64,000 bases of DNA from Oscillospiraceae bacterium. GTDB taxonomy: Bacteria; Bacillota; Clostridia; Oscillospirales; Oscillospiraceae. The translations under genes were made by a program, and so were the position numbers. Shown one piece after another: positions 24,721-46,482 of this stretch. Under the pieces are notes generated by a model. That model was not told the origin of the DNA. It saw only the letters and a list, made by a program, of their open reading frames with translations, and did not search any database. Numbering within the stretch: position 1 is the first letter of the stretch; every line of letters starts with the position of its first letter. The DNA lies in assembly GCA_009781515.1 (NCBI GenBank), contig WQXY01000001.1, positions 1-64,000 of the forward strand. Direction: 5' to 3'.

Positions 24721-27700
24721 ATGAAAAAAATTATTAAAAGAAAAACGCTTATTATTGTACTCATCCTAATGTTTGTGACTATTATGAGTATGTCACTTAC
24801 AACAAGTGCTGCAGTGGAGAAAATTAATATTTGGATGTTTGGCTATCCACGAAGCGGTGGCAGCTTTAACTGGGGACACGGCGACCTTGCCTTTATGAAC
24901 AATTGGTATTCGGCAGATACAGATAGGTTTTATGCAATAGCTGCTTCTAATAAGAATAGTCAAATTGCATATTGTGTTCAACCGGGTGTAGGATTAAGTT
25001 CATATGATGAAATTCCGGTAGTTGCCAGTGCTGATTATTTAGAGAGTTATGACAATGGCGCTTTAAACAGTGAAGATCTTCAAAAATATCTTGGTCGTGT
25101 AATGCACTATGGTTATAATGGGGTCGCTTCAGGAGGTTTAACTAATAATGAAATAGCGCAGGTTATAGCTACGCAGATATTGGTGTGGGAAATAATAGTC
25201 GGCGAACGCAATCCGGATTTTAGTTACAAAGTACCTACTGGTTCATATAATGCGGCAAAAGCAATTGTCAGAAATAGCCATCCTTTACGTACTACAATTT
25301 TCAACTACTATGATGAAATTGTAGATAATGTCATAAATCATAAGAAAAGACCAAGTTTTATGGAAGAACTTACTAAGCCTGCTCCTATCCACGAAATGAC
25401 ATGGGATGGGTCAGCATATTCGGTTACTATACCCGACAAAAATGAAATTTTGAGAGATTTTAACTTTCTACCGCTATCAGGTATAACTATTACAAAAAAC
25501 GGTAATAATCTAACAATCAGTTCGACAGCTCCGATTTCAGAAATTGATGGTAAAGTAATCTACGCTGAAAGAGATAACTCAAAAAGCAGAGCTGTGGTTT
25601 TTTGGGGTTGGGAAACAATTTCAGACAAGAATAATCGCCAAGGGTTAATTTTGGGCACAGAAATAGATGACCCTGTACCGGCACATATGAAACTAAAAAT
25701 CAGTACAGGCAATCTTGATATAAAGAAGACAACACAGCACAATAATGGCTCAGTTGGTGGCTTTGATTTTGAAGTCCGTGATAGTTTTAACAATTTAATC
25801 GGAACATTTACATCTGATGCAAATGGCAATATTCACATCCCAAACCTTGCAGCGGGAGTGTATACAGTTAAAGAAATCAACCTGTCATCCGATTTTGTTG
25901 AACCTACACCAAATCCGAAAACAGTAACGGTCTACGGCGGACAAACAGCCGAGGTCAGTTTTGACAATATCAAAAAACGGGGTATTATAACAATCCAAAA
26001 GAATAATGCAAATCCGAATATGGGTGATTATCCGCTTGCAGGAGCTGTCTTTGAAGTGCGAAATGCAAGCAATACTCTCGTTGATACAATTACAACAAAC
26101 GCACAAGGCAGAGCGCAGACTATAATTTTACCTTTAGGTACATACACGGTCACAGAAGTAACAGCTCCGTACGGATATATACGCAATCCCAGTACGTTTA
26201 CAGTAACAATCTCAGGTTCACAAGGAACAGGAGCAATCGTCTATCCACCTGATGTGAACGTACCGCAAAATCCACAGCCGGGAATAATCCGAGTTGAGAA
26301 ATTTAATGCAAATCCGGATATGGGTTGCTATTCACTTGCAGGAGCAGTATATGAAGTCAAAGCAGCACAAAATATCTTACGCTTAGACGGTACAGTAATA
26401 TATAGTCAAGGCGAGCTTGTTGACACAATAACAACCAACGCACAAGGTAGAGCACAGACAAAGCAACTTCCATTAGGAGCATATACAGTACAAGAAGTAA
26501 TTGCACCATTTGGCTATGTAATAAACCCAACTATATTTGATGCAATATTGGAATATGCAGGACAGGATATTACCGTAACATATACTGATGTATCTGTACC
26601 GCAGCAACCTGTAGTGGGTAGGTTAATAATCGAAAAGACAGGCGAAGTGCTGATAGGAGCACAGGAATATACAGAAACCATTCACGGTATAGTTCATACC
26701 CTATATAATCCCGTGTATGGAGTGCAACCATTACCGGGAGCAGTATATGAAATTTATGTCCGTGAAGACATTCTGCGATGTGACGGGACAGTACTACTCA
26801 GCGCAGGCACATTAGTAGACACTATAACCACCGGTTCAGACGGAAAAGCTATGTCTGTAAGCTTACCATTAGGTAATTACTACGTTGTAGAAATAACAGC
26901 ACCTTTCGGTATGATACTAAACCCGACAGAGTATGATTTCTCGTTAGTTTATGAAGATCAAACTGTGGAGATTGTATACACAGAGGTAGGTGTATATAAC
27001 GAACGTCAAAAGGTAGAAGTGCCAATTATAAAGAAATGGGATTTACCGAACAGACCGCCACCAAATTATACAGTCAGTGCTACCTTCGGACTGTTTGCCC
27101 GTACAGAAATACTTGCACGTAACGGAAGCGTTGCAATCCCGAAAGACGGATTGATTAAAACAATAACTCTGACAGTGACCGGTGGTGACACAGCATCAGG
27201 CGTGTTTGATGTAGACCTACCATTTGGTTCGTACTATGTTGAAGAAATGGATGTAACTGCCACACCGCCGCATAACTACTTCCTTGATAACACACAATAT
27301 GATTTTACATTTGAATATGCCGGTCAAAATATCACACTTGTAACAATTCCAATTAATGGCGGTACACCTATTAATAACAGATTAGTTGGAACCTTGCCGA
27401 TTAAAAAGATTATCCATGTTCATAAAAACTTTGAACATGCAACGGGTACCGGAATTAGAATGAGTGAAATAGGTATTACCAACGGTCAAAACTGGGAAGA
27501 ATTCACACCCATAACAATAAGTCAGGCTGTGAATAGTGAAATCTTTAGCACTCCTCTGATTATTGACATAGAGGGAACAATAGTTGGAACGATGACAGCT
27601 AAGTATATCCCCGGTGAAGGCTTGATGATTGGATACGAAGTATTTTCAGGCTATCATCTGCAGCAGGACGCACGACTTCAAATTGTTCATCACCCAAGTG

Positions 27701-28482
27701 TAAGCGATTGTGTTGTATCAGGTTGTACTAATCACTTTACATCGAAATCATTCGGTGACTTACCGTTTAGGTCTGATAACTACAACAACGGACAAGCGAG
27801 TGGTTACATAATGATAGATGAAGCGACATTATTGGCGAAAGAGATTATCTTCGATGAAACCCACCCGGATTTCGATATCGACCAAGAGTTCTATGTGTTC
27901 TTGAGACTCAGCAGGGTTGCCGGAGGTTTGTACAATAACATTAACAGGTCTTGGATAGATGCAGGGTACAAATACGAATTTATGGTATTTGACTTAGATG
28001 ACTTTTCACATCTGATTGGTAATGGTAAACCTTATCCAAACCAGAAAGCTGTTGAACAGGCAGTTGCTAATGATGTTATCGGTGTCTTAAACAATGGTGT
28101 TATGCCTGTAAACATCACCAGAGTCAGAGATGCTGACGGAAATGCCATTAACTCTGCTAAACGTGTTGGCTTAAACGGTTTGTGTGCGATTAGGGTAGCT
28201 ACAAGAGCGTATTCAACAGACAGAAGCTGCGACCCGATGAACTGTACCTGTTGGAGTGTATTTGCCGAATTTAACAAGACCATTTGGGTTGACCTACCGC
28301 AAGGCAGATACCTTATAGCTGAGATATTCAGAGATGAAAACGGAGTTATTATGGACAGCTCTGTGTTTGTGACTACTACTGGTACAGGTGAGGTATCTAC
28401 TGTAAATCCCGGAAATACATCAAACGAAAGGCTAATCAGGAACAACTTCAAGAAGTTCTACCATGAGGTCTATGGGCAGTAG
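24721..28482 (+). CDS. Large surface adhesin with N-terminal thioester domain and SpaA/Cna-B-type repeats
   Basis: Signal peptide; 'IAYCVQPGVGLSSYDE' plus 'VIATQILVWEI' (Cys and TQxxxW motifs of thioester domains); repeats 'GFDFEVRDSFNNLIGTFTSDANGNIHIPNLAAGVYTVKEI', 'PLAGAVFEVRNASNTLVDTITTNAQGRAQTIILPLGTYTVTEVTAPYGYI'. No LPXTG-type tail. Confidence 0.85.
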   Translation: MKKIIKRKTLIIVLILMFVTIMSMSLTTSAAVEKINIWMFGYPRSGGSFNWGHGDLAFMNNWYSADTDRFYAIAASNKNSQIAYCVQPGVGLSSYDEIPVVASADYLESYDNGALNSEDLQKYLGRVMHYGYNGVASGGLTNNEIAQVIATQILVWEIIVGERNPDFSYKVPTGSYNAAKAIVRNSHPLRTTIFNYYDEIVDNVINHKKRPSFMEELTKPAPIHEMTWDGSAYSVTIPDKNEILRDFNFLPLSGITITKNGNNLTISSTAPISEIDGKVIYAERDNSKSRAVVFWGWETISDKNNRQGLILGTEIDDPVPAHMKLKISTGNLDIKKTTQHNNGSVGGFDFEVRDSFNNLIGTFTSDANGNIHIPNLAAGVYTVKEINLSSDFVEPTPNPKTVTVYGGQTAEVSFDNIKKRGIITIQKNNANPNMGDYPLAGAVFEVRNASNTLVDTITTNAQGRAQTIILPLGTYTVTEVTAPYGYIRNPSTFTVTISGSQGTGAIVYPPDVNVPQNPQPGIIRVEKFNANPDMGCYSLAGAVYEVKAAQNILRLDGTVIYSQGELVDTITTNAQGRAQTKQLPLGAYTVQEVIAPFGYVINPTIFDAILEYAGQDITVTYTDVSVPQQPVVGRLIIEKTGEVLIGAQEYTETIHGIVHTLYNPVYGVQPLPGAVYEIYVREDILRCDGTVLLSAGTLVDTITTGSDGKAMSVSLPLGNYYVVEITAPFGMILNPTEYDFSLVYEDQTVEIVYTEVGVYNERQKVEVPIIKKWDLPNRPPPNYTVSATFGLFARTEILARNGSVAIPKDGLIKTITLTVTGGDTASGVFDVDLPFGSYYVEEMDVTATPPHNYFLDNTQYDFTFEYAGQNITLVTIPINGGTPINNRLVGTLPIKKIIHVHKNFEHATGTGIRMSEIGITNGQNWEEFTPITISQAVNSEIFSTPLIIDIEGTIVGTMTAKYIPGEGLMIGYEVFSGYHLQQDARLQIVHHPSVSDCVVSGCTNHFTSKSFGDLPFRSDNYNNGQASGYIMIDEATLLAKEIIFDETHPDFDIDQEFYVFLRLSRVAGGLYNNINRSWIDAGYKYEFMVFDLDDFSHLIGNGKPYPNQKAVEQAVANDVIGVLNNGVMPVNITRVRDADGNAINSAKRVGLNGLCAIRVATRAYSTDRSCDPMNCTCWSVFAEFNKTIWVDLPQGRYLIAEIFRDENGVIMDSSVFVTTTGTGEVSTVNPGNTSNERLIRNNFKKFYHEVYGQ

Positions 28483-28842: not shown

Positions 28843-29469
28843 ATGAAAAAAACAATTAAAAATATTGTTCAAGAAAGAGATGTAAGATATTTAGTGCATT
28901 TTACAAGAGCCGAAAACTTAGAAAGTATTTTTCTTCACGGAATAATTTCGGTTGCAGAAATTGATGCAATGAGACTAAAAGTTAATAAAAATGACGATTT
29001 AAGACTTGACTATTGTACAGAAGCGGTTTGCTTATCCATAGGATTTCCAAACTATAAAATGTTTTATGGTACAAGACGTGAAAACCCGGATAGTGATTGG
29101 GTAGTGCTTATTATAGAACCAGAAGTATTATATGACTTAGATTGTGCCTTTTGCAAAACAAATGCAGCTTCGTTAAGTGTTTCATCCGTTCCTTTGAAAA
29201 AGAGGAAAACAGTAGAAGCTTTTGAAGAAATGTTTTATGAACCTTTATCGAATAGTCGCAAAAAACGCAATTTGCCTGATGATTTCCCAACAGATCCACA
29301 AGCAGAAGTTTTAGTGTTAGAAGCAGTACCTCCTGAGTATATAGTTGCTGTTTGTTTCGAAGATAAAGAAGCTGAGCAAGAGAATTTACGAATACTCCCT
29401 CACGATATTGAAAGCACACATAAGAGTAATCTTTTTAGTTGGAGAATAGATTGCGAATATTGGAGATAA
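28843..29469 (+). CDS. DarT-like (DUF4433) ssDNA ADP-ribosyltransferase toxin
   Basis: 'VRYLVHFTRAENLESIFLHGIISVAEID', 'AVCLSIGFPNYKMFYGTRRENPDSDWVVLIIEPEVLY', 'FPTDPQAEVLVLEAVPPEYIVAVCFED'. Confidence 0.8.
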   Translation: MKKTIKNIVQERDVRYLVHFTRAENLESIFLHGIISVAEIDAMRLKVNKNDDLRLDYCTEAVCLSIGFPNYKMFYGTRRENPDSDWVVLIIEPEVLYDLDCAFCKTNAASLSVSSVPLKKRKTVEAFEEMFYEPLSNSRKKRNLPDDFPTDPQAEVLVLEAVPPEYIVAVCFEDKEAEQENLRILPHDIESTHKSNLFSWRIDCEYWR

Positions 29470-29473
29470 TCTT

Positions 29474-30172
29474 ATGGCAAAACGACCTGTTTTTATTTGT
29501 ATAGATGAAAAACCTTATTTTGATGTAAAAAATGTTAATTTTGACTATTACTCTGGTTTTTCTATATCCCAAAAACAAAAATCGATTAAAAGCCTTCATC
29601 AATCAACTAATAAATTATATGAAAACCTTAATCTTTTAGAAATATCAAGCAAATCAGAAAGTATACTCGGTCAAAATCTAAGTGCATTTAGCCTTTCGTT
29701 TAAAGGGAAGAGCGGAAAACGTTATAGTGTAGAAACGACTTTCCAAGCAAGCAAAAGATTTGAGTATGGAGGTCCATACAGAGATTTACTTGATAAACAC
29801 CCAAGAGAGGCAAAACGAGACGAGCGGTTAAAGAATAGTGGGAAGCTTATTGAATTCGTTTATATTGATGATAAAAATGTTTTCCCATTAGTACCAAAAA
29901 CCTTGTTTTATAATTGGCTTTATATTAACACACTTGCTTTAAATCAATCGTATTTTAATGAGTTGTTAAAGTATAATGCTTTCACTGATATTGAGTTCAA
30001 TCCTGAAAAATCAATTAATTGTCAAGCTATCGCTGCTGCCATTTTTGTTTCTCTATATAAAAACAATCTATTTTGTCCTCCATTCAGTAAAGAAGAGTTT
30101 CTTTCAACAGTTTACGGGTCAAATGAGATTAACTGTTATGCATTTGAATATGAACAGCTTAAGTTCCTATAA
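29474..30172 (+). CDS. DarT-partner protein of unrecognised family (putative antitoxin)
   Basis: Starts 4 nt after the DarT-like stop; 232 aa; no macrodomain motif seen. Confidence 0.6.
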   Translation: MAKRPVFICIDEKPYFDVKNVNFDYYSGFSISQKQKSIKSLHQSTNKLYENLNLLEISSKSESILGQNLSAFSLSFKGKSGKRYSVETTFQASKRFEYGGPYRDLLDKHPREAKRDERLKNSGKLIEFVYIDDKNVFPLVPKTLFYNWLYINTLALNQSYFNELLKYNAFTDIEFNPEKSINCQAIAAAIFVSLYKNNLFCPPFSKEEFLSTVYGSNEINCYAFEYEQLKFL

Positions 30173-30334
30173 CGCAACATGTAATTTTACTTCTATTCTA
30201 AAAATTGTTCATATTGTTATTTACGTTTACAGAGCATATAAGCTATATTTTATTGGAATTTTCTGAAGAGTCTGATATAATGTCAGGCAGTTAATAATGT
30301 TAGTTTTATTTTAATGATAAAGGAGTTGAAAATA

Positions 30335-30619
30335 ATGTCTGTTAAGCAATTCCAAGTTGCTATACCAAACGAATTTATGCCATTTATCCAACAGTTAAAG
30401 GATGGAGATACTCCTGATGAAAAAGTAACCCTGTCTTTAGCAATAGGAATGTTTTTGGCCAAGCAAGCTACACTTGCAAAAGCTGCTGAGTTGGCAAAGA
30501 GAACTATATGGGAATTTTCTGAAATCCTCAAATCTCTTGGTATATCATGGGGTGAATACACAGAAGAGTCACTATTGATGGATGATTTAACTCTTTCTAA
30601 ATTAGCAGGTTTTAAATGA
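30335..30619 (+). CDS. UPF0175-type antitoxin
   Basis: 'VTLSLAIGMFLAKQATLAKAAELAKRTIWEFSEILKSLGISWGEYTEESLLMDD'; RBS 'aaaggag' precedes internal ATG at 30335. Confidence 0.7.
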   Translation: MSVKQFQVAIPNEFMPFIQQLKDGDTPDEKVTLSLAIGMFLAKQATLAKAAELAKRTIWEFSEILKSLGISWGEYTEESLLMDDLTLSKLAGFK

Positions 30620-31113
30620 TAAAAGTAATATGCAATGCAAGTCCGATTATTGGTCTTGTAAGTATTGGCAAGCTTAATCTGTTGTGGGAAATCTTTGATG
30701 AAGTGCTTATACCCGAAGCAGTGTATCAAGAGGTCACTGCCGGAAACCGCACACAAGATATAGCTGTAATTTTAGATGCGATTAATAATGGTAATATAAA
30801 AGTAATTAAGATACATGGAAAAGATATTGCCAACCTTTTATATGGCAAGCTACACAGGGGCGAATTGGAAACTGTCATCGGTGCAAAAGAAGACCCAACT
30901 ATCAACCTTGCGATTATAGACGAAAAAGCAGCACGAACATTTGCTGCAACAATGCTTGTTGATACTCTCGGTCTTTTGGGTATATTAATCCACGCAAAAG
31001 CTACGGGGCTGATCGAAGCTGTCCGTCCGTGTTTGGATAAATTAATTAGTAACGGTTATTGGGTATCTCATGGGTTGTACAAACAGGTGCTAAGCAAGGT
31101 TGATGAATTGTAG
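30616..31113 (+). CDS. DUF3368-type PIN-like toxin
   Basis: 'MIKVICNASPIIGLVSIGKLNLLWEIFDEVLIPEAVYQEV', 'LHRGELETVIGAKE', 'IIDEKAARTFAATM..TLGLLGILIHAKATGLI'; ATGA overlap with preceding gene. Confidence 0.85.
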   Translation: MIKVICNASPIIGLVSIGKLNLLWEIFDEVLIPEAVYQEVTAGNRTQDIAVILDAINNGNIKVIKIHGKDIANLLYGKLHRGELETVIGAKEDPTINLAIIDEKAARTFAATMLVDTLGLLGILIHAKATGLIEAVRPCLDKLISNGYWVSHGLYKQVLSKVDEL

Positions 31114-31348: not shown

Positions 31349-33281
31349 TCAAATTACTGGTGCAGGTATGATTGTATCATAAAACTTTGATGTTTTTCTT
31401 TGGGCAAGAGCTGTAGGGTCTACTCCCTCTTTAAAATAGTATAGTTGGCTTACTTGATATACTTCACCCAAACAAACCTCATGTGGCTCAACAAACTCAC
31501 ATGCAAATCCATCTCTATCAGTTAATTCATTTGGTTTTTCTTTTGGTATATGGTCTGTTATTGCACGAACTTTTATCTTATTATTGTGGAATTTTAAGCA
31601 AAACCCTATATCTGCCGGTAAAAACACAATTTCAGAACCAATATCCTTTTTACTTTTAAATGCTTCATCAAACATTTTTGTAACGTCTATCCTATAACCG
31701 TCAAATTCTTCGCCAAACTCAGAAATAATACAAACCTCTGGCCTTAGAATTTCTGTGATTTTTGTTAATCCTATTCTTCCTAAATGCTCTTTATAATAAC
31801 ACTCCTTATTCCTTTTTATATTATTAATGGAGTAGTATTTTTCACTATCCTTACATCCTCCTAAATTTGCAAGAAGTGTAATATGCTTTTTCTCATTAAT
31901 ATGACGTGCTTTTAGCTTCTTATACGCGTTCTTAATACTTATATCTTCGAAACCCGTATCTCCAGTATAGACTAACGCAAAGTCCTTTAGTTTAAAGCAA
32001 AAGCCAACTGAGCAACAATCAGAAATTACATCATTATGCTGTGCTTTTATAACGTGTACCTCTAGTTTTGTTCCAGAAATTTTGAATTTATTATTTTCTT
32101 CATCGTCAACGCAAACAACTTTATAATTACTGCTTTTTTCTAAGTTGAAAAAGTTTGCATATTTTTTATGTGTTCCAGCTGTCATATAAAATTTAATGCA
32201 TTTTCTCCTCTTTTCGAACTCCTCTTTCACTTTCTTTTCTATTGCTTCTTTTCTATCTGATGATAATCCCTCTCGAAATGTTGTTTCTCGGTCTAGAATA
32301 GCATCATAAATGCTCCTTGGTTTTTCTTCAGAATCTGAACCATATAGATCATCATTATATTTGTAATGAAGTGTCAATAATGATTCCAAATCTGCAGTAT
32401 GATCGTTGTGAGCATGTGTAAAAAATACAGCATCAATATCTTTAACTGTATAACCAGCTCTGACAAAATTCTTAATAAAGTCAAAACCGGGATCAACTAC
32501 TATGCCTTTATTTGCATATTTAATGAAATATCCCCCGCCCTTACTGACTCCACTACTAGCAATTGGTGTATATGAATTCCATTTTCGTAAAACTAACAAC
32601 TCAAGACCATCAACGTGTATTACCTTGTTTCTATGGCTATGGAATTTATTCTGTATGACTTTATTGGCTTCAGTTTTCTTAAAGAGCTCTTTTGTTTTTT
32701 CTATTACTGTCATTGAAATATCTTTTTCTTCATGTGGCATATTCTTGATTCTTAACAGTTCTTTAACATTTTGAATTCTGTGTTTTATACCTGTTTTTCG
32801 GTTTTTATCTTTGTATAGTGCATATACTTTTTTATAACAATCGATAGCCTCTTCATATTCTTCGTTGTTGAAATAAATCAACCCTTTATTATAGTGCGGA
32901 GCAGTTAGCTTAGAACTAATATCCAGAGCCTTGTCATAGTATTTTATTGCTTCATCGTAATTTCTTAGATCATAATACACTCGCTCCTTGTTAACGTGTG
33001 CCATTCCATTGAACTCATCAAAAACCATAGCCTTTTCATAATCTTCTAGAGCCTTTTCATATTGCCCCATGCGACGAAATACATTCCCGCGAAAATTATA
33101 TGCTTTTGATTTTTCTTTTGCACAATCATAACTAATTTCAATCTCTTCATTACAGTGCTTAAGAGCTGTATCGAAATTCCCGTCAATTTTCCCCCTCGCC
33201 AAAAAAAATAACGGCTTGATTATGGTGCCATTCTGCTGTACGGGTCACTTTATTATCTTTTGCAAGTTTTTCTGAAGACAT
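31349..33281 (-). CDS. TPR-repeat protein with C-terminal metallo-beta-lactamase fold; apparent frameshift in 5' A8 tract
   Basis: TPRs 'AYNFRGNVFRRMGQYEKALEDYEKAMVFDEFNGMAHVNKERVYYDLRNYDEAIKYYDKAL'; MBL motif 'DAVFFTHAHNDHTADLESLL'. ORF track starts at 33202 (TTG), but ATG 33281 with RBS AGGGGAGG reads MSSEKLAKDNKVTRTAEWHHNQAVIFF and joins the TPR frame after a 1-nt shift at 33201-33208. Confidence 0.8.
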
Positions 33282-33396: not shown

Positions 33397-34743
33397 TCAA
33401 TTAGTGATGTGCAAAAATTTAATCACTTTACTGTCTAACTCTCTTGTAATCATTTTTTTTGCAAACTCACAATAATCAGATAGCTGTGCTGAATTAAGAA
33501 ACTTCCTAATATATGGGCAAATACCAGCACAATGCCATTGAGCAAAACAATTTGAGCATTCAGACGGTTTGTTGTGGATGTTTTCGTTAACAGTATGAAA
33601 TGCTTTTTCGTTGATATTTATAGTATCATTAATATGTCCATACATAAATTCATTAAATAACCTATCTTTTTGAGAAGATACTCTATGACAAGAAACTATC
33701 TCTCCGGTTGGCAGAACGCAAAACTCTCCATTGCAAAATCTGCCTTTAATTCTATTGACGGAACGAACTAGTGAATTTCTAAGGTAAATTCCATTTTCAC
33801 GCGCATAATCGCGTGCAATGAAAAAATTAGAAATAAAATTGTCATAATATTCATTTTGATGAAGTTGTAAATCTGTTACATGCTCAAAGTGCAACTTCTT
33901 AATATCAGGATAATTGTTAACAACATACGCAACCATTTCCTCCATTAAGCAAACGTTTAACGGTGTTATTGTTGAACGTATTCGTGGAGGCATTTTGTAT
34001 GCAATTAACAATTGAATGCATGAATTTACAATATCGAAACTGTTTTTATCAGATTCGTAGGGGAAGCATCTTTGAGCATTCTGGATTTCTGGTAATATAT
34101 CAAATGAAACGCCCACATCAACATGATATTGCTTCAGCCAAGAAACTCGTTCATCGTTGAGCAATGTGGCATTGGTAGTCAAGCCGATGCTATATTTTAC
34201 TTTTCGTTTTGTTGCTTCTTTTTTGATATATTCAATTGCGTTCGTAAAAATATCCCATGTTATTGTCGGTTCTCCGCCTCCGAGGAATGAAAATTCCTTT
34301 TCTTTATTACTTGGTGATGATAATATATAATTAATAACAGTTGCAAGCTGTTTTTCATTAATTGTATCAGGAGATCGAGACACCTGTGCATAACAGTATG
34401 TACAAGATAAGTTGCATTTCTGCGATAAGATAAATACTGCCCTATCTCCAATCTTTAACCTTTGCTCTCGAGGGGGCGCAATGTTTTTTTTATTAATTTT
34501 ATTAACATTCTCTACAAGTTTAGTGTTTTCTATGGGTAAATCCAATCCATTATTTAAATGAGCATTAATTGCTTCTGAGGCACTTGAATTTGCCCAAAAA
34601 AGCATCTTCCTCAGTGGCGAATATACAAGAAATCCGTTTTCTATCGAAGAAGGAATAAAGTAAACATCCTGAGTTGGCGTGCTTGTAATCATTTTTTCTA
34701 ATCCTTTTTGCATATATAGTGCTACATACAATAAAGTGTCCAT
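33397..34743 (-). CDS. Radical SAM/SPASM peptide-modifying enzyme (RiPP maturase-like)
   Basis: 'FILSQKCNLSCTYCYAQVSRS', 'FSFLGGGEPTITWD', SPASM-type 'GRFCNGEFCVLPTGEIVSCHR...PSECSNCFAQWHCAGICPYIRK...DYCEFAKK'. Confidence 0.88.
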   Translation of the reverse strand: MDTLLYVALYMQKGLEKMITSTPTQDVYFIPSSIENGFLVYSPLRKMLFWANSSASEAINAHLNNGLDLPIENTKLVENVNKINKKNIAPPREQRLKIGDRAVFILSQKCNLSCTYCYAQVSRSPDTINEKQLATVINYILSSPSNKEKEFSFLGGGEPTITWDIFTNAIEYIKKEATKRKVKYSIGLTTNATLLNDERVSWLKQYHVDVGVSFDILPEIQNAQRCFPYESDKNSFDIVNSCIQLLIAYKMPPRIRSTITPLNVCLMEEMVAYVVNNYPDIKKLHFEHVTDLQLHQNEYYDNFISNFFIARDYARENGIYLRNSLVRSVNRIKGRFCNGEFCVLPTGEIVSCHRVSSQKDRLFNEFMYGHINDTININEKAFHTVNENIHNKPSECSNCFAQWHCAGICPYIRKFLNSAQLSDYCEFAKKMITRELDSKVIKFLHITN

Positions 34744-35665: not shown

Positions 35666-36613
35666 TTATGATATCGGTATTGTTTTAGCTGAACTAAATT
35701 CATGTTCAAAATCACTTAAATAAAACTCGCCATATCCTCTTCGTTCATCCACGCAGAAGACATATAAACCTGAATTACCTTTCGCTCTATAATGTGCTAA
35801 AAGTGTGGTTTCTTCATTTTGGACAATATAATAAGGTATATTCGTTACTTCTTTTAAAAGAAAATTGTCTTTCATGTCTTGTTTACGTTCATCTGATATG
35901 TTTTGTGAGTCTATTGATTTATATATATCCTGTACAAACCTAATTACATTTTTCCTTTTTTGCAAAAGGTCTTTGTTGTGCTCATTAACAGTTTGAAGTA
36001 GTATTTTCACTGCTCCGCGATCTCCCAATACACGTAAAACTGCTTTTTTAAACGCACTTTTCACATCAGTACGGTTACCAATAGTTTTATTTAATGTATG
36101 AGCAGTTATCGATAGAGTTTTATACGTTCCATTATATAACTTTTTAAAATACTCATCATTGTAATCAGTGGCAGGCTTAATTGAGTGTATTCCGACAGTT
36201 TTTTGTTCTTTGTAGAACTCCTTTATTTTACTGCATTCTTCACAAATACTATTATATTTAGTATTAATTTTCTTTAAATCTTCTACAAATATACTCATCG
36301 ATTTATTAATCATTTCTTCAGATTTCTTGATAAATTTCATCGTTTCGCTTCTTGTAGGTTTTCCTTTTCTGTTAACTATCGACAATAAAAGAATTATGAA
36401 TATGAGAAGTGATATAATCACAATAAACTCACTGTTCATTTGTATAGTATCCCAAAGATACATAAAATGCTTCGTAAACGGACCTACATGTGCAAGTATT
36501 GGAGAAACAACTACTATTACTAGTGCTGCAACAGAGCACATTCCTGTGATAACCACAAAAAGACCATACTTTTCTACAAGTTTTTTCAAAAGGCTACTCC
36601 TATTTCTAAACAT
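35666..36613 (-). CDS. Membrane protein with two N-terminal TM helices and cytosolic alpha/beta domain
   Basis: TMs 'GLFVVITGMCSVAALVIVVVSPIL' and 'SEFIVIISLLIFIILLLSIV'; C-terminal 'AVKILLQTVNEHN...TTLLAHYRAKGNSGLYVFCVDERRG'. Confidence 0.65.
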   Translation of the reverse strand: MFRNRSSLLKKLVEKYGLFVVITGMCSVAALVIVVVSPILAHVGPFTKHFMYLWDTIQMNSEFIVIISLLIFIILLLSIVNRKGKPTRSETMKFIKKSEEMINKSMSIFVEDLKKINTKYNSICEECSKIKEFYKEQKTVGIHSIKPATDYNDEYFKKLYNGTYKTLSITAHTLNKTIGNRTDVKSAFKKAVLRVLGDRGAVKILLQTVNEHNKDLLQKRKNVIRFVQDIYKSIDSQNISDERKQDMKDNFLLKEVTNIPYYIVQNEETTLLAHYRAKGNSGLYVFCVDERRGYGEFYLSDFEHEFSSAKTIPIS

Positions 36614-36982
36614 TAATTTATTATTAAATCGATTTATATCACTGATAGTTTATCCTTCCCGATATAAAAGACTATTAAAACAACATTATCCCCGAATATA
36701 TAAATCAACATTCTATTTTGATAGCTATATATAGAGACAATGAAGCCATTTTACCGCAGTATATCTAAATAATCAATATATTATAACAAAACAACAACAT
36801 TTCATTTATATGATTTTGATAAAAAGCTGAAAAAATGTAAACAGAACTTTTTTGATAAAATTGAGATTTTAATTTATTTTACGTATGATATCGAAACAGT
36901 GTTAAAATGAGCTCTATTTTGTTTGACAAAAGTATGAAAATATGAGACTATTTTGATAATATTACAGAAGACATTCTTTACT

Positions 36983-38041
36983 ATGGAGGTAACTAAAATT
37001 TTGTTGCCCTACGATCGGATTAAACAAAACCACGATTTATCAGCTGAAGGTTTATCACTACTTGAGTTTTTCATTGAGTCAGGTGGTCACGGTCTTTCTA
37101 AATATGATTTAGAACATCACGCTTCTCTAAAATTCCCTGTTCTTGATGGTAAAAACATTCATGAAATAATACTTGACTTGGTAAATAAGTGTATTGTTTC
37201 TTTCAAGAGTGATGTATATACTCTGACAGGAAAGTTTAAAGCTGATAATAATATCGCAGAATATGTTGATTCTAGTGAAAAGAAACTACGTTTTGGCACA
37301 TATGAAGGTGTTAAAAATGCAATGCCTAGTTTGAACGCTATTTTTCAAAACGATAGCAATGTTGTTTATGTTTTTTTGGCAATTACTCCTCATTATGTTT
37401 TTGTCAAATTAATGGAAAGAATTGAGAGAAAACGAAAAACGATTTTCTTCATGCCCGATGTAAGTTGTTTTCGTAACACAAATGAAAAAAACAAGCATCG
37501 TGATGTATTAAAAGGATGGATTGAGTTCATTAAAAAGCAGGATACTGAATTTGTTGAGTTCTATCTTGTGAAAAATCGCAGAAATGATAAAAATAGAGAC
37601 CGTTATAGCTTTCTTTACTCAAGTCTTCTTGCAAAAAGTACAGTTCGCTTTAATATTTACAAATACGATGACGATGGAAGACTTGTATCAGGGGTAGGAA
37701 AGCTAATAGAGTGTAAGACGAATGAAAACTCATTGTATGACATTGTTGAACGTTGTTATACTGATGCATGGAATGAAAGAATTGGAGTCCGAAAGATAAA
37801 TGGAAAGATGTGGATAAAACGTTTCTTTTCAAATAACATCTATTGGATATTATTTTCTACTCTTATGCTGATTGTGTTGATTAGCGCATTCATTTTTGTC
37901 AAAATGTTACCATCTTCGCAAAGTCCGCTAATGTTATTATTAGATATATTCGTGCCAGCTATTAGTTTGGTAGCGTTTCCTTTATCACTGTTTAAGTCAA
38001 AAATAACCAAGCTATTTTATAGAAAAAAACTTCCCTTTTAA
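36983..38041 (+). CDS. Hypothetical protein with C-terminal TM hairpin
   Basis: C-terminal TMs 'IYWILFSTLMLIVLISAFIFVKML' and 'LMLLLDIFVPAISLVAFPLSLF'; exact start uncertain; ends 10 nt before the radical SAM-CYTH start. Confidence 0.6.
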   Translation: MEVTKILLPYDRIKQNHDLSAEGLSLLEFFIESGGHGLSKYDLEHHASLKFPVLDGKNIHEIILDLVNKCIVSFKSDVYTLTGKFKADNNIAEYVDSSEKKLRFGTYEGVKNAMPSLNAIFQNDSNVVYVFLAITPHYVFVKLMERIERKRKTIFFMPDVSCFRNTNEKNKHRDVLKGWIEFIKKQDTEFVEFYLVKNRRNDKNRDRYSFLYSSLLAKSTVRFNIYKYDDDGRLVSGVGKLIECKTNENSLYDIVERCYTDAWNERIGVRKINGKMWIKRFFSNNIYWILFSTLMLIVLISAFIFVKMLPSSQSPLMLLLDIFVPAISLVAFPLSLFKSKITKLFYRKKLPF

Positions 38042-38051
38042 GGAACTTCAT

Positions 38052-39512
38052 ATGATAAACAAAATCTATTTTGACAGATTAATAAATACTATTCATGATA
38101 TGGAACTACCATATTTAAGGGTATGTTTAACAAGCTTTTGTAATGCTTATTGCTATATTTGTCACAATGAAGGTCAAGAAAAAGCAAGCTCTGGTGGACT
38201 CTCATTACATGAATATGATGAGGTTGCTAAACTGCTCGCTCCCCATTTCCATCCTCCCCGTGTTGTGCTTACAGGCGGTGAACCATTGCTATTTCATGAT
38301 TTGTATGAAGTTATAAAAATTTTTAAATCTTATAAATATACAGTAGGGTTGGTAACAAATGGAATACTTCTAGATGAGCACACACAAAAAAAATTGCTCG
38401 AATCTGGTTTAGACACAATAAACATTAGTTTAAATAGCTTAGACAGAGAAAAACACCAAAACTTCTATGGTATAGATGAGTTTATTATCTTAAAGAAAAA
38501 CCTTGAAGTTTTAGATAAACATTTTATGTATCCTCAAAAGAAAATAAACTGGGTTATATCCGACAACCCAGTTTTTGACGATGAGATTCAGAAGCTATGC
38601 GTACTAAGCCAAAAGTACAAGTTTGTAATAAGTCTAATGTTTGATGTTAATATTGACAGTGAAAAAACCAACTCGTTATTCAACAGAATCAAAAAAATAC
38701 TATATAACAATTATGGAGAACCTAGTATTGAAAAACATATTAAGTATAAGCGATACATAGAGCACCTTAAATTTAATAATGGGAGTATATGGGAATTTGA
38801 TTATTTGCAAACAGAACAGAATAAGCATTTGTTAAAAAACAACGTTTTTTGTAGAAATTGCCATAGTGAAAATAAGGAAATATGTTATGAAGGTGCTTAC
38901 GCATTGCGTCTTTTCGCAAATGGAATTTTTAAACCTTGTTTAATTAGAAAAGATAATGAAGTTAAAATTAGTGATATTTTTCCAAAGTCAAATATTGAAC
39001 TCGAGGTTAAATATAAAGTGTTAGATTTCCCAACGAAGCTTATCGAATCATTGGGTTTTGTGGAATTAAAGAGAAGTCATCAAGTTGATAAATATCATAT
39101 TGTGAATAAAATTCTTAATGGAAAAAGAACATACATGCGACTAAGGAATGATGTCATAAATAATAAAATGTCCTTTGATTTTCACCAAGTAATTTCTGAT
39201 ATTGCTATAGAGGAAACGGAGATAGCACTAAATGATTCAGATGATATTGACATAATGGGAACAATATTGGAAAAATTAAATTATCCATTTGTTTGTGAAG
39301 TAGATAAATATCGAATGGTTTATAGAAACGGTGACATAGAACTAGTTTTAGATACAGTTAAAAATTTAGGTAAATTCATCGAAATAGAACTAACTGGAGA
39401 TGAAGAACATGAGTCACACGAGAATTTATTTCAATTAGTTACCAAATTATCTTTGAATGAAAAGGATAGAATAATAAAAAAAGGGTATCCTGATATGATA
39501 TTGTCTGAGTAG
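38052..39512 (+). CDS. MoaA-like radical SAM protein fused to C-terminal CYTH-like domain
   Basis: 'LRVCLTSFCNAYCYICHNEGQ' (CxxxCxxC), 'VVLTGGEPLLF', second Cys cluster 'CRNCHSENKEICYEGAYALRLFANGIFKPCLIRKD'; then CYTH-type 'IELEVKYKVLDFPTKLIESLGFVELKRSHQVDKYHI' (ExExK), 'YMRLRND', 'YRMVYRNGDIELVLDTVKNLGKFIEIEL'. Confidence 0.8.
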   Translation: MINKIYFDRLINTIHDMELPYLRVCLTSFCNAYCYICHNEGQEKASSGGLSLHEYDEVAKLLAPHFHPPRVVLTGGEPLLFHDLYEVIKIFKSYKYTVGLVTNGILLDEHTQKKLLESGLDTINISLNSLDREKHQNFYGIDEFIILKKNLEVLDKHFMYPQKKINWVISDNPVFDDEIQKLCVLSQKYKFVISLMFDVNIDSEKTNSLFNRIKKILYNNYGEPSIEKHIKYKRYIEHLKFNNGSIWEFDYLQTEQNKHLLKNNVFCRNCHSENKEICYEGAYALRLFANGIFKPCLIRKDNEVKISDIFPKSNIELEVKYKVLDFPTKLIESLGFVELKRSHQVDKYHIVNKILNGKRTYMRLRNDVINNKMSFDFHQVISDIAIEETEIALNDSDDIDIMGTILEKLNYPFVCEVDKYRMVYRNGDIELVLDTVKNLGKFIEIELTGDEEHESHENLFQLVTKLSLNEKDRIIKKGYPDMILSE

Positions 39513-39749
39513 AACTCTATTAATGAAGCTCAGGAAATCTTTGTAAATTATCTCCCATGATAACTTTGAGTTGTATACCCGATACAGATATTTGTTTACG
39601 CAGTATTTTACTCATTACTTAGCACGGTTTTTCGTTGACGCTTATAATTAAAATTTTATTGTTATCTGCGACTTCTAAATATTTAAAATAACCGCTCCAA
39701 AATATAGCATGAGTTAGCTCCAACCAAGTGTTTGTCAACCTTGATTCTG

Positions 39750-40241
39750 TGAAGCCAAATGATATATTATGTGTATACAACAAGCGTGTAGGCGAATGGG
39801 CTGGAAGTCATGATTGTCCTGTTATTGAATTATTAGGTGTAGGTGGGCATTTGCCTATTATATGGCAACAAAAGAAAAAAATTTTGTCAGTTGACGTTTA
39901 AGGAGAACTTATGTAAAGAGTTAAAAGAAGAATTAGGAATTAGAATTAATGAAAACAGAATAATTATTTTAGGTGGATATAATAATGTTATTACATATGA
40001 GTTAGTTGTTTTATCAGGTATATTCATTACAGAAAGCAGTTTATTTAGTATTCAAAAATATGCTGTGCAAAATAATGATATAGATGCTAATGGTATTTAT
40101 ATGGGTACATTTGATGACATAATAGAGTATTATAAATCAAACCCCGATTACTTTGCAGGCGGAGCAAGAACAGTATCTTATAACTTTCAGAGTTACCCCG
40201 ATTTAATGAGTAGGGTGGATAAATTTATTAGGTCTATATAA
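39750..40241 (+). pseudogene. Nudix-like hydrolase, frameshifted at A7 tract
   Basis: 'NDILCVYNKRVGEWAGSHDCPVIELLGVGGHLPI' in one frame and 'LTFKENLCKELKEELGIRI' (Nudix box end) in the next; frame changes near 39875-39881. Exact 5' end not determined. Confidence 0.55.
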
Positions 40242-42479: not shown

Positions 42480-42567
42480 CCTCACCCTCACCGCAACATA
42501 ATAATTGAACAAATGTAAAGGGGACAATTATATTAGTATTAATGATCGTAGCATAGGAGGAAAGCCC

Positions 42568-43416
42568 GTGGCATTCTCATTTGACTGTTTTGTCATTACG
42601 CATACCGGCAATCATCGGAAAAGCAATGAGGATAATTTCTTAGTCGGTGAGATGCTTATGCCGGAGGAGCAAGCGGCTATGTCTGGAGCAACGAGCAGAC
42701 TTATCAGCAAAAGATTTACCGCAAGTGGTTCGGTAAATAATATATTTGCTGTCAGTGACGGTATGGGTGGACATGATTTCGGAGAAGTAGCGAGTTACGT
42801 GATTGTAAATGCTTTAAGCGAATTTGTCTCGCAATATAAAACAAAACCGTGCCGCAAGCGAAATGATAAATTTATGTATATTCAGGCATTTCAAGAAATG
42901 GTCAAACGAACTAACAAAGCGATTCTTGACTATGCAGCGGATAACAACGCGAGCGAAAATATGGGAGCCACACTAAGTGGATTGATTGCGTTTCCTGATG
43001 AGGTTGCCCCAATAAATATAGGGGACAGTTCTACATTCCATTTCGAGAATGACAAACTTACTAAACTGACAATAGACGATAACGAAAAATCCATTTTTGA
43101 AGGAGTTTATCCCTTTGCGTTAAAGAAAAATGGTCAACGCCTAACAAAGTATTTCGGATTGCCGGAATCATGTGGAATCTTAACCGCAACCATTTCAGCA
43201 CCGATTCCTTTAAGGGCAGGTCAAGTTTTCATCATAGCATCTGACGGGCTTACTGATTATCTGACCACCGATGATATTTCTGATATTCTAACGGAAAATT
43301 CAGACAGCATTGAGCAAGCTGTAAGCGCACTGATTGAATCCGCGCTCGATGGGGATAACGGTGGGCGCGACAACATAACAGTTGTCGCACTGAAAGCGAT
43401 AAAAACATCCGATTAA
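42568..43416 (+). CDS. PP2C-family Ser/Thr protein phosphatase
   Basis: 'THTGNHRKSNEDNFLV', 'NIFAVSDGMGGHDFGEVAS', 'IIASDGLTDYL', 'GGRDNITVVAL'; GTG start at 42568 after 'aggagg'. Confidence 0.9.
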   Translation: MAFSFDCFVITHTGNHRKSNEDNFLVGEMLMPEEQAAMSGATSRLISKRFTASGSVNNIFAVSDGMGGHDFGEVASYVIVNALSEFVSQYKTKPCRKRNDKFMYIQAFQEMVKRTNKAILDYAADNNASENMGATLSGLIAFPDEVAPINIGDSSTFHFENDKLTKLTIDDNEKSIFEGVYPFALKKNGQRLTKYFGLPESCGILTATISAPIPLRAGQVFIIASDGLTDYLTTDDISDILTENSDSIEQAVSALIESALDGDNGGRDNITVVALKAIKTSD

Positions 43417-43428
43417 AGGAGGAATATT

Positions 43429-46400
43429 ATGGCAGAGAGCATCTTACTGAGTGAAATCCAAGGATACACTATTGCCAAAAAACTCGGTAGCGGAGGGTAT
43501 GGTACAGTTTATCTTGGGGTCAAGGAAGACCTCGGCAAACAGTATCAAACAGCAATTAAGCATATCTCTATGCCTGATGCCGAAGCATATGAATCTGTAT
43601 TGCAAGATTATAACTTTGATAAGGCTGCAACACAGGCACATTTTGAGAAATTGGTGGCAGGCATCACTTCCGAAATCAATACGCTCCTAACCCTTAGCAA
43701 AAAGGATAGCAGGTACATAGTAACCTACTACGATCATGATATACAAAAATCTCTCGATCCATTGCGCTTTGAAATATTCATGCGAATGGAATATCTGACT
43801 CCACTCAACAGAGCTATCCGTCAAAAAGGAATGGCTTTGGGAGAGGTTATTAAACTCGGTCTTAACATGTGTGATGCGCTTGCGTTGTGCCATAACAATG
43901 ATGTGATGCACCGTGACATTAAAGAAGCTAATATATTCGTCAGCGAAACCGGAAATTACAAGCTGGGTGATTTTGGTGTTGCGAAAGTTGCGTTTGAAAG
44001 CACACAGGCTGGGTCTATTAAAGGAACCGCTTCATATATGGCACCGGAGATTTATCTTTGTGAGCCGTATGATAAGAGTGTTGACATTTATTCTCTTGGA
44101 ATTGTTCTCTATAAATTGTTAAATAATCAACGTCTGCCATTTATGCCGGATGCTCCTACCGTTTTTACTGCCGATGATAAGAACATGGCCGAATCTAAGC
44201 GGCTCAAAGGTGAAATTCCGCCGTTACCTTTCCATGCTAAAAACAAACTAGGTGAGATAATTGTCAAGGCTTGCTCGGTCAAAAGTCAGCGCTATTCTAC
44301 TGCTGAAGAATTGAAAAAAGAGTTGTCAGCGTTTATTGGAACACTATCGACCGAGGAATATGATACGGTCATAATTCAAGAAGCGGCTGATGGTGGTGTG
44401 TCTTCCGATTCCTATTCAGATAACTCCATTAAGTCGTTTACACAGACGCAGGGCGCAACGATGACAATGGGCATGCAGAGCGGTCAGTATGCGACACCTA
44501 ACGAAAAACAAAATCCGTATACAGATAAGCTGAAAGGCAAAGCGAAGAAAATTGTTATAGCAGCATCGATTTTAGTCGGAATTGTTATAGCTGGAGCAAT
44601 CTCATTAACCATACTTTTTAATAGTATCAACGATCCTGTAAACAGATTCGCATCTGCACTTCGAAAAGGTGACTTTTCTACAGTATATCAAATATACCTT
44701 GATGAACTTAGGTTTGGCGATGAAGACAAACTTGATAAAGCCAAGCAGCTTTTAATCGATCAAGCGGAGAGCATAGAAGCTTCATATGTAGATAATGAAA
44801 TTGGTTATGAAGAAGCATTGGCACAGATTCAAGAGATTGAAAATTTGAAGATAGTTGCAAATTCTGAGCTGTCACCATTCATTGAATCAATCAGCAAATT
44901 GCAAGTGTCGCGCACGGCCTACCAAAATGCTCAAGACCATATTGAAAAAGCAAATTATATACAGGCAATCAATGAGCTTAAAAAGGTAATACCGCGTGAC
45001 GAAAATTATGATAACGCTGTAAGGGAATTGAACAGAGTAACCAGCGAGTATAGAGAGGTTACTCTGGATGAAGCCTCCGCATTGTCAGAAAACAAAGAGT
45101 ATACGAGGGCGATAAAGATTTTAGAAGAGGCTATGGAAGTCATCGGAGAAGACACCAACCTTGTTTTACTCCGCAACACTATAAAAAAGCAGGAAATTGA
45201 CGAGAAAATAGATGAAGCGTTGGCATTGGCAAACGGCAATGAATTTAATAGAGCGATAAATATTTTAGATCAACTGCGAACACAGAACCCAAGCGACGCA
45301 GATATTAGCAAAGCTCTCTCCGATATTGAGCCGAGTCATGTTGACAACATTGTATCAGAGGTAACTAATTTAAGCGCGAATGACAATTATGATAGAGCGC
45401 TTAGCACCCTAAACGATGGACTGAGGCGCTATCCTAATAACAAAATACTTGCAGACGCTATCACAGAAACACAGGCAAAAGAGAAAGAGTATATTATTCA
45501 TCAAGCAAACACGCTTGCCGCTGAATACAGATATGACGATGCCATTTCGTTTTTGAGGTCTTCTAAATATTCCAACGATAGCGACATAAGAGCGTTGATA
45601 ACAGATTATAACAATAGGCGCCCTGCCATATTGGGTGTGGACATTTTACCGTATCAGTCAGAAAACATTGTGTTGTTTACTGAAACGGCACCCGGCAATA
45701 TGATGGGAGCGCAGTACATACATGGCTTTAGAACAGATGGGAGTGCCACGAGCAGAGCATATTTCAATCTTGATGGCAATTACACAAATCTGTCAGGTTT
45801 GTATGGTCCAATGAGTGGTTCTGCGTCGGGAAACGTGACTCTTACCGTGTGGGGTGACGGGAAGATGCTAGGAAGATACGAAATGGCGACAGGCGACCTT
45901 GTAAAAATATTTAACATCAACGTAACTGACGTAGGGCAGTTGTTTTTTGAGTTTACTGGTATGGCGAGAGACAGACGTTACAGTATAGCAAACGTACTGG
46001 TTTCCACAGACAGCGATATGTCGGCTTCATTTAACGAACCGGTTGGATTGTATAATAGCAATCCGACATTAGGTCACGACATAATGGCTTATCGAGCAGA
46101 AAATGCGAGGCAATTATCCAGAGCAGAACCTGCAAGCGTGATGGGCAATTCATACGATAACGGATTAGTATCTGATGGATTCAGAGAATCATGGAGCGCA
46201 GCTTTCTACAATATTGACGGCAAATACAAGAGTTTAACTGGAATATACGGTCCCTTAGACGGAACAAATAATGCTGCGATTGGAGCAATTAACATATACG
46301 GAGATGGAAAATTGATAAATACATATACTGTGAGAGCCGGAGATGTGGCACAATCATTTTCTGTCAATGTAACAGGTGTGACACAAATATTTATTGAAGT

Positions 46401-46482
46401 AAATGCTCAAGGCTATACAGTGGATTGGTGGACTACACGTTACGGTCGTTTTGTTGTTGCAAATATGAAATTATCTCAATAG
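43429..46482 (+). CDS. Transmembrane Ser/Thr protein kinase with TPR-like region and two extracellular NPCBM-like beta domains
   Basis: 'IAKKLGSGGYGTVYLG', 'MHRDIKEANIF', 'KLGDFGVAKV', 'GTASYMAPE'; TM 'IVIAASILVGIVIAGAISLTILF'; two homologous C-terminal modules ('GVDILPYQSENIVLF..', 'GHDIMAYRAENARQL..'). Confidence 0.9.
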   Translation: MAESILLSEIQGYTIAKKLGSGGYGTVYLGVKEDLGKQYQTAIKHISMPDAEAYESVLQDYNFDKAATQAHFEKLVAGITSEINTLLTLSKKDSRYIVTYYDHDIQKSLDPLRFEIFMRMEYLTPLNRAIRQKGMALGEVIKLGLNMCDALALCHNNDVMHRDIKEANIFVSETGNYKLGDFGVAKVAFESTQAGSIKGTASYMAPEIYLCEPYDKSVDIYSLGIVLYKLLNNQRLPFMPDAPTVFTADDKNMAESKRLKGEIPPLPFHAKNKLGEIIVKACSVKSQRYSTAEELKKELSAFIGTLSTEEYDTVIIQEAADGGVSSDSYSDNSIKSFTQTQGATMTMGMQSGQYATPNEKQNPYTDKLKGKAKKIVIAASILVGIVIAGAISLTILFNSINDPVNRFASALRKGDFSTVYQIYLDELRFGDEDKLDKAKQLLIDQAESIEASYVDNEIGYEEALAQIQEIENLKIVANSELSPFIESISKLQVSRTAYQNAQDHIEKANYIQAINELKKVIPRDENYDNAVRELNRVTSEYREVTLDEASALSENKEYTRAIKILEEAMEVIGEDTNLVLLRNTIKKQEIDEKIDEALALANGNEFNRAINILDQLRTQNPSDADISKALSDIEPSHVDNIVSEVTNLSANDNYDRALSTLNDGLRRYPNNKILADAITETQAKEKEYIIHQANTLAAEYRYDDAISFLRSSKYSNDSDIRALITDYNNRRPAILGVDILPYQSENIVLFTETAPGNMMGAQYIHGFRTDGSATSRAYFNLDGNYTNLSGLYGPMSGSASGNVTLTVWGDGKMLGRYEMATGDLVKIFNINVTDVGQLFFEFTGMARDRRYSIANVLVSTDSDMSASFNEPVGLYNSNPTLGHDIMAYRAENARQLSRAEPASVMGNSYDNGLVSDGFRESWSAAFYNIDGKYKSLTGIYGPLDGTNNAAIGAINIYGDGKLINTYTVRAGDVAQSFSVNVTGVTQIFIEVNAQGYTVDWWTTRYGRFVVANMKLSQ

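Follow-up and report, generated by a model that had tools for sequence, protein, structure and literature searches.

A radical SAM-CYTH fusion with a membrane-anchored partner gene in Oscillospiraceae, and related radical SAM genes that adjoin nucleotide-phosphate enzymes

The 64,000-nucleotide stretch of an Oscillospiraceae bacterium genome analyzed here (the window; contig WQXY01000001.1) contains a forward-strand open reading frame (ORF) at 38052-39512 that encodes, in one frame, a MoaA-like radical S-adenosylmethionine (SAM) domain and a CYTH domain, for a total of 486 amino acids (aa). We consider the fusion to be a nucleotide-modifying radical SAM enzyme with its own triphosphate-processing domain, carried with a membrane partner in a mobile two-gene unit, a reading to which we assign a probability of roughly 0.6. 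A first-pass annotation of this DNA had proposed the fusion without recognizing any precedent; both domain profiles exceed their cut-offs (PF04055, residues 26-138, 63.3 bits against 29.5; PF01928, residues 314-472, 44.8 bits against a gathering cut-off of 23.2), and a literature search found no publication naming or describing a radical SAM-CYTH fusion.

Both halves of the protein are intact. A single-sequence scan of genome contigs found one full-length relative, 83% identical, on a contig of an Oscillospiraceae metagenome-assembled genome (L003). Relative to this sole close relative, the ratio of nonsynonymous to synonymous substitution rates (dN/dS) is 0.18 overall, 0.19 for the radical SAM half, and 0.15 for the CYTH half; because purifying selection acts on each half, the two domains are being kept up jointly. 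The AlphaFold 2 (AF2) model of the radical SAM half has predicted local distance difference test (pLDDT) values mostly of 75-95. Coordinates of the domains, motifs, and neighboring genes are shown in Table 1.

By sequence, the nearest solved relative of the radical SAM half is AbmM rather than MoaA or viperin; the top PDB match is 8wm2 (E 2.6e-15), which a fold search names AbmM. The half carries the two features by which AbmM-like proteins were recognized, CHNEG following CxxxCxxC and a four-cysteine auxiliary cluster of the form CxxC-x5..7-C-x17-C. The spacing is C267-x2-C270-x7-C278-x17-C296 in the fusion (CxxC-x7-C-x17-C) and CxxC-x5-C-x17-C in AbmM, and the two share CxE and LR..PCL. AbmM differs in being a 325-aa chain without a CYTH domain and is ∼20% identical to the fusion in a structural alignment, and no albomycin-type cluster is seen at the fusion locus. 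A swap of sulfur for oxygen on a cytidine-type nucleoside is a further criterion for AbmM-like enzymes. AbmM is reported to carry out such a swap in thionucleoside formation during albomycin biosynthesis, with its own [Fe4S4] cluster donating the sulfur (PMC12691670).

The fusion is not the host's MoaA, nor is it viperin. It resembles MoaA (GTP 3',8-cyclase) in fold and in its N-terminal half, but its auxiliary cluster has four cysteines where MoaA has three, it lacks a C-terminal GG, and it has A284 at the position of the first Arg of NRIR in the host MoaA. The second cysteine cluster described in the first-pass annotation is thus real, but its layout is not that of MoaA. The true host MoaA, on a separate contig (L002), scores 333 bits, has a three-cysteine cluster followed by NRxRxT as well as the C-terminal GG, and adjoins genes that read as MoaC-like and MOSC-like in their ORFs. 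The possibility that this is a housekeeping MoaA to which CYTH became joined by accident, which a profile score of 125 bits might suggest, is refuted by this second gene, by the missing GG tail and three-cysteine layout, and by the failure of every curated MoaA cut-off (TIGR02666, 96 against 284 bits; TIGR02668, 124 against 325; NF001199, 125 against 231). Against the viperin model NF038283 the fusion scores 55.7 bits (cut-off 180), and against PADLOC pVip 62 bits (no cut-off given), and it has an auxiliary cluster, which to our knowledge viperin lacks. The resemblance to viperin lies elsewhere, in that viperin modifies a nucleoside triphosphate and that pVip together with a nucleotide kinase likewise represents a radical SAM enzyme genetically partnered with a nucleotide-phosphate enzyme. 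Kinship to MoaA and viperin, as first suggested, therefore holds as far as the protein being MoaA-like, but the closest solved sequence is that of AbmM.

CYTH proteins are characterized by an eight-stranded tunnel fold and, a small group aside, are mostly triphosphatases. The CYTH half is the only CYTH domain of the source genome, matches the triphosphate tunnel metalloenzyme Saci_0718 in the PDB by sequence (E 8e-7), and has all of the motif residues that had been picked out, namely ExExK (E316, E318, and K320), R363/R365, and E444/E446. It shares the profile match and these motifs with triphosphate tunnel metalloenzymes and CyaB but differs from them in being fused to a radical SAM domain; it is a candidate cyclase or phosphatase.

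The conserved unit comprises the fusion and the membrane-anchored gene directly upstream. The partner ORF opens at TTG 36953, although the likely start is ATG 36983, and its stop lies 10 nt ahead of the co-directional fusion; the product has a transmembrane (TM) hairpin (residues ∼288-306 and 316-334), and its structure model is poor (pLDDT 45). DNA similarity to L003 begins at about residue 112 of the partner gene and ends where the fusion reading frame ends. Within the shared part of the partner gene, dN/dS is 0.27 (0.20 for the soluble core and 0.43 for the TM part). In L003, a truncated kinase-like ORF, broken off at the border of the shared block, takes the place of the N-terminal portion of the partner gene, and the region upstream of the block (L003 4563-7308) contains a SIR2-domain gene, a gene for a 356-aa protein of no assigned function, and this kinase-like ORF. 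Two other genes near the fusion, a divergent gene with two TM segments and a Nudix remnant, lie outside the unit, because both are absent from L003 and the similarity stops at the end of the fusion. Of the TM neighbors that were initially implicated, the upstream gene thus accompanies the fusion at each of the two clostridial loci and the divergent gene does not; nor is a link seen for the Nudix fragment, which had been assigned a turnover role and is itself only a possible Nudix gene (Table 1).

Neither the partner gene nor the divergent gene has relatives in plasmids or in the sampled genomes of the family, and no relatives of the partner gene were found in a viral scan. At strict E-values, samples of 151 genomes from the family, 394 from the order, and 399 from the phylum yielded no copy of the fusion in any other genome. 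Two further genomes of its genus are without it, which makes it an accessory gene.

A membrane partner directly upstream of the fusion and co-directional with it in both copies could also indicate nucleotide signaling, in which the fusion would make a modified or cyclic messenger, with CYTH acting as a class IV cyclase and the TM partner as the sensing membrane effector. Scores against the CyaB model TIGR00318 (cut-off 57.95) are compatible with this, with 54.7 bits for the window CYTH half and 69.1 bits, above the cut-off, for that of L003. However, the partner protein has no known effector or sensor domain and models poorly, no such partner is found beside the other radical SAM-CYTH pairs, and the CYTH family consists mainly of triphosphatases; furthermore, PADLOC analysis of six genes around the locus gave no match, including to cyclic-oligonucleotide-based antiphage signaling systems (CBASS) and pyrimidine cyclase systems for antiphage resistance (Pycsar), save for weak viperin cross-hits. 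We therefore regard a signaling module as rather improbable.

Related radical SAM genes recurrently adjoin a CYTH or a thymidylate kinase gene. Ten genuine radical SAM loci emerged when IMG/VR was scanned for CxxxCxxCHNEG with a degenerate DNA pattern, and their whole records, which may include host DNA, were searched for CYTH and thymidylate kinase. CYTH is present in four of the ten (L019, L022, L023, and L025), and another four (L017, L026, L027, and L028) have thymidylate kinase; no record has both, and two (L015 and L016) have neither. In all eight paired records the coordinates place the partner gene directly next to the radical SAM gene, and this adjacency is constant even though gene order varies, the CYTH gene leading in L022 and L025 and the radical SAM gene in L023, L019, and the window. 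The ten records are a small sample and are not independent, as L022, L023, and L025 are mutually related, as are L017, L026, and L027, but according to a tree the CYTH pairing and the thymidylate kinase pairing must each have arisen at least twice. CYTH is present in 11 of 14 control genomes, with few CYTH genes per genome, which makes repeated chance adjacency very unlikely. The TM neighbor is a consistent companion of the two clostridial fusion copies but not of radical SAM-CYTH pairs generally; across the loci, the radical SAM gene is usually partnered by CYTH or, in its place, thymidylate kinase.

Most of the viral-contig relatives keep the four-cysteine auxiliary layout of the fusion. An exception is the L019 pair (122-1454, reverse strand) on a phage contig, which lacks the auxiliary cluster and in which an early-ending ORF for the radical SAM N terminus is continued by an overlapping CYTH-bearing ORF, possibly a split fusion. 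In L028 (1895-3396, reverse strand), on a 62-kb contig, the thymidylate kinase gene and the CHNEG radical SAM gene have a few bases of overlap, and a gene resembling tyrosine integrases lies close to the L025 pair. L015 (8473-10918) codes for a CHNEG radical SAM protein that has lost the auxiliary-cluster cysteines, followed by a 475-aa protein with a C-terminal TM segment; this protein has no kinship to the partner protein of the fusion, and a two-TM protein of L015 is not related to the divergent two-TM protein of the window. Four other candidates were discarded: the pattern matches in L018 and L024 are due to chance, the long ORFs in the stretches listed there being a ribonucleotide reductase gene and phage structural genes, H1 (Acetoanaerobium) is a normal MoaA, and H8 (Streptomyces) sits in an isoprenoid-type cluster without CYTH. 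A CYTH gene on a Rhodococcus ruber conjugative plasmid (L029, 5992-6546) is 57% identical to the L025 CYTH and has no radical SAM gene annotated alongside.

Because CYTH and thymidylate kinase both act at the phosphate end of nucleotides, these pairs point to a nucleotide substrate, and the link to modified nucleotides or triphosphates originally drawn for the fusion is supported. Radical SAM enzymes of the MoaA, AbmM, and viperin type modify nucleotides, and the simplest view is therefore that these proteins do likewise while their partners set or remove the phosphates. The fusion acts as a Rosetta-stone link that ties an uncharacterized AbmM-like radical SAM group to nucleotide triphosphates, and the recurrent exchange of CYTH and thymidylate kinase opens the class of substrate to testing. 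An alternative is that the radical SAM half targets a peptide, lipid, or tRNA and that CYTH serves a regulatory purpose as a sensor of polyphosphate or of a nucleotide alarmone. The function of a radical SAM enzyme cannot be read from its sequence, and a SPASM-type peptide maturase gene is encoded 3.3 kb upstream of the fusion, but the same exchange of adjoining genes indicates nucleotide phosphates, and we consider a non-nucleotide target improbable.

In the reading that we prefer, nucleotide modification coupled to triphosphate processing, the radical SAM half would use SAM and its AbmM-like auxiliary cluster to alter the sugar or base of a nucleotide, with the sugar as the likeliest site and a sulfur-for-oxygen swap as one option among several. 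The CYTH tunnel would hold the triphosphate, whether that of the substrate or that of the product, and hydrolyze it or, less likely, cyclize it, either supplying the right phosphorylation state or shielding the producer from a modified triphosphate, and the membrane-anchored partner may dock or gate the activity. The nucleotide nature of the substrate, the direction of the CYTH reaction, the toxicity of the product, and a role in conflict are what we infer for the fusion. The fusion may be a sign that phages and mobile elements harbor a hidden source of sugar-modified nucleotides, which could serve antibiotic discovery and the study of viperin-like defense, and it suggests a new task for CYTH domains, the processing of an unusual triphosphate produced by a partner enzyme.

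A functional precedent is thmABC of Photorhabdus, which makes 4'-thiothymidine with a radical SAM enzyme (ThmA), a nucleoside kinase (ThmB), and a triphosphatase (ThmC), the last of which, a nucleoside triphosphatase, confers resistance to 4'-thiothymidine by itself (PMC12691670). Like the clostridial unit as read here, it combines radical SAM and nucleotide triphosphatase functions within one small mobile cluster, but the genes are separate and include an AbmG-like kinase. By analogy to ThmC, the fused CYTH could be either a protective or a preparatory triphosphatase. A special case of the preferred reading, with overlapping confidence, is biosynthesis of a nucleoside antibiotic or thionucleotide, in which the product would be an exported prodrug and CYTH a ThmC-like self-resistance triphosphatase. 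The similarity to AbmM and the thmABC precedent agree with this, but the two clostridial loci share neither a nucleoside kinase gene nor a transporter gene nor any further gene of biosynthesis, and this case seems unlikely. A broader proposal, which we put forward tentatively as possible rather than probable, is a convergently assembled and undescribed class of nucleotide antimetabolite systems on mobile elements and phages, built from AbmM-like radical SAM proteins with either CYTH (fused or adjacent) or thymidylate kinase (adjacent); the clostridial form with its membrane partner would be a viperin-like antiphage or self-limiting defense module in which one polypeptide both makes and defuses a triphosphate product.

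Several observations weigh against the preferred reading. MoaA is the best fold-search match of the radical SAM half and ranks above AbmM, so that the AbmM-like label rests on sequence score and motif, and in the tree the CHNEG proteins form no clade apart from MoaA, with long branches meeting. No significant similarity of ThmA to AbmM is reported (PMC12691670), and the thmABC precedent is hence functional and not evolutionary. The AF2 model of the CYTH half has a pLDDT of ∼30, with only two alignment rows covering it, and assignment of the fold accordingly depends on profile matches. The relationship of the window CYTH to its actinobacterial counterparts is distant (16 to 17% identity, weak hhalign match), and only two full-length clostridial copies of the fusion are known.

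Table 1. Features of the fusion locus and its surroundings in the window
Feature	Position	Strand	Details
Radical SAM-CYTH fusion	38052..39512	+	486 aa; full-length relative in L003, 83% identity; dN/dS 0.18
Radical SAM half, MoaA/AbmM-like	38052..38990	+	Residues 1-313; intact domain at residues 18-312
SAM-binding cluster motif C30-x3-C34-x2-C37-H-N-E-G	38139..38174	+	Invariant in alignment with relatives
Auxiliary cluster C267, C270, C278, C296 with CYEGAYALRL	38850..38939	+	Four cysteines
CYTH (triphosphate tunnel) half	38991..39509	+	Residues 314-486; PF01928; triphosphate tunnel metalloenzyme match in PDB
Gene for 352-aa partner with C-terminal TM hairpin and without known domains	36983..38041	+	ORF and TM prediction; residues 114-352 conserved beside the fusion in L003
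Block common to the window and L003	37316..39506	+	blastn, 83.7% DNA identity; defines the conserved unit
DarT-family ADP-ribosyltransferase and DarT1-associated NADAR antitoxin	28843-30172		PF14487, 76 bits; PF22397, 272 bits
UPF0175 and DUF3368 (PIN-like) toxin-antitoxin-type pair	30314-31113		Profile matches
TPR repeats fused to metallo-beta-lactamase fold	31349-33202	-	Profile matches
Radical SAM/SPASM protein, PapB-type ranthipeptide maturase-like	33397-34743	-	124 bits, below cut-off of 340; 3.3 kb upstream of fusion
Divergent gene, two N-terminal TM segments	35666-36613	-	TM prediction
Possible decayed Nudix gene	39843-40241		No Pfam match; weak NCBIfam Nudix match, E 0.11

The DarT1-NADAR and PIN-type toxin-antitoxin genes are both upstream of the fusion, in keeping with the resemblance to a defense or stress module that had been noted. 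Together with the SIR2 gene in L003, they represent conflict-type settings and, along with the integrase-like gene near the L025 pair, favor the view that the unit is mobile conflict cargo. Elsewhere in the window, 24721-28482 codes for a large SpaA/thioester-domain surface protein, and 42505-46482 contains a PP2C phosphatase gene followed by a gene whose 1017-aa product resembles a Ser/Thr kinase, among genes for zinc-ribbon proteins.

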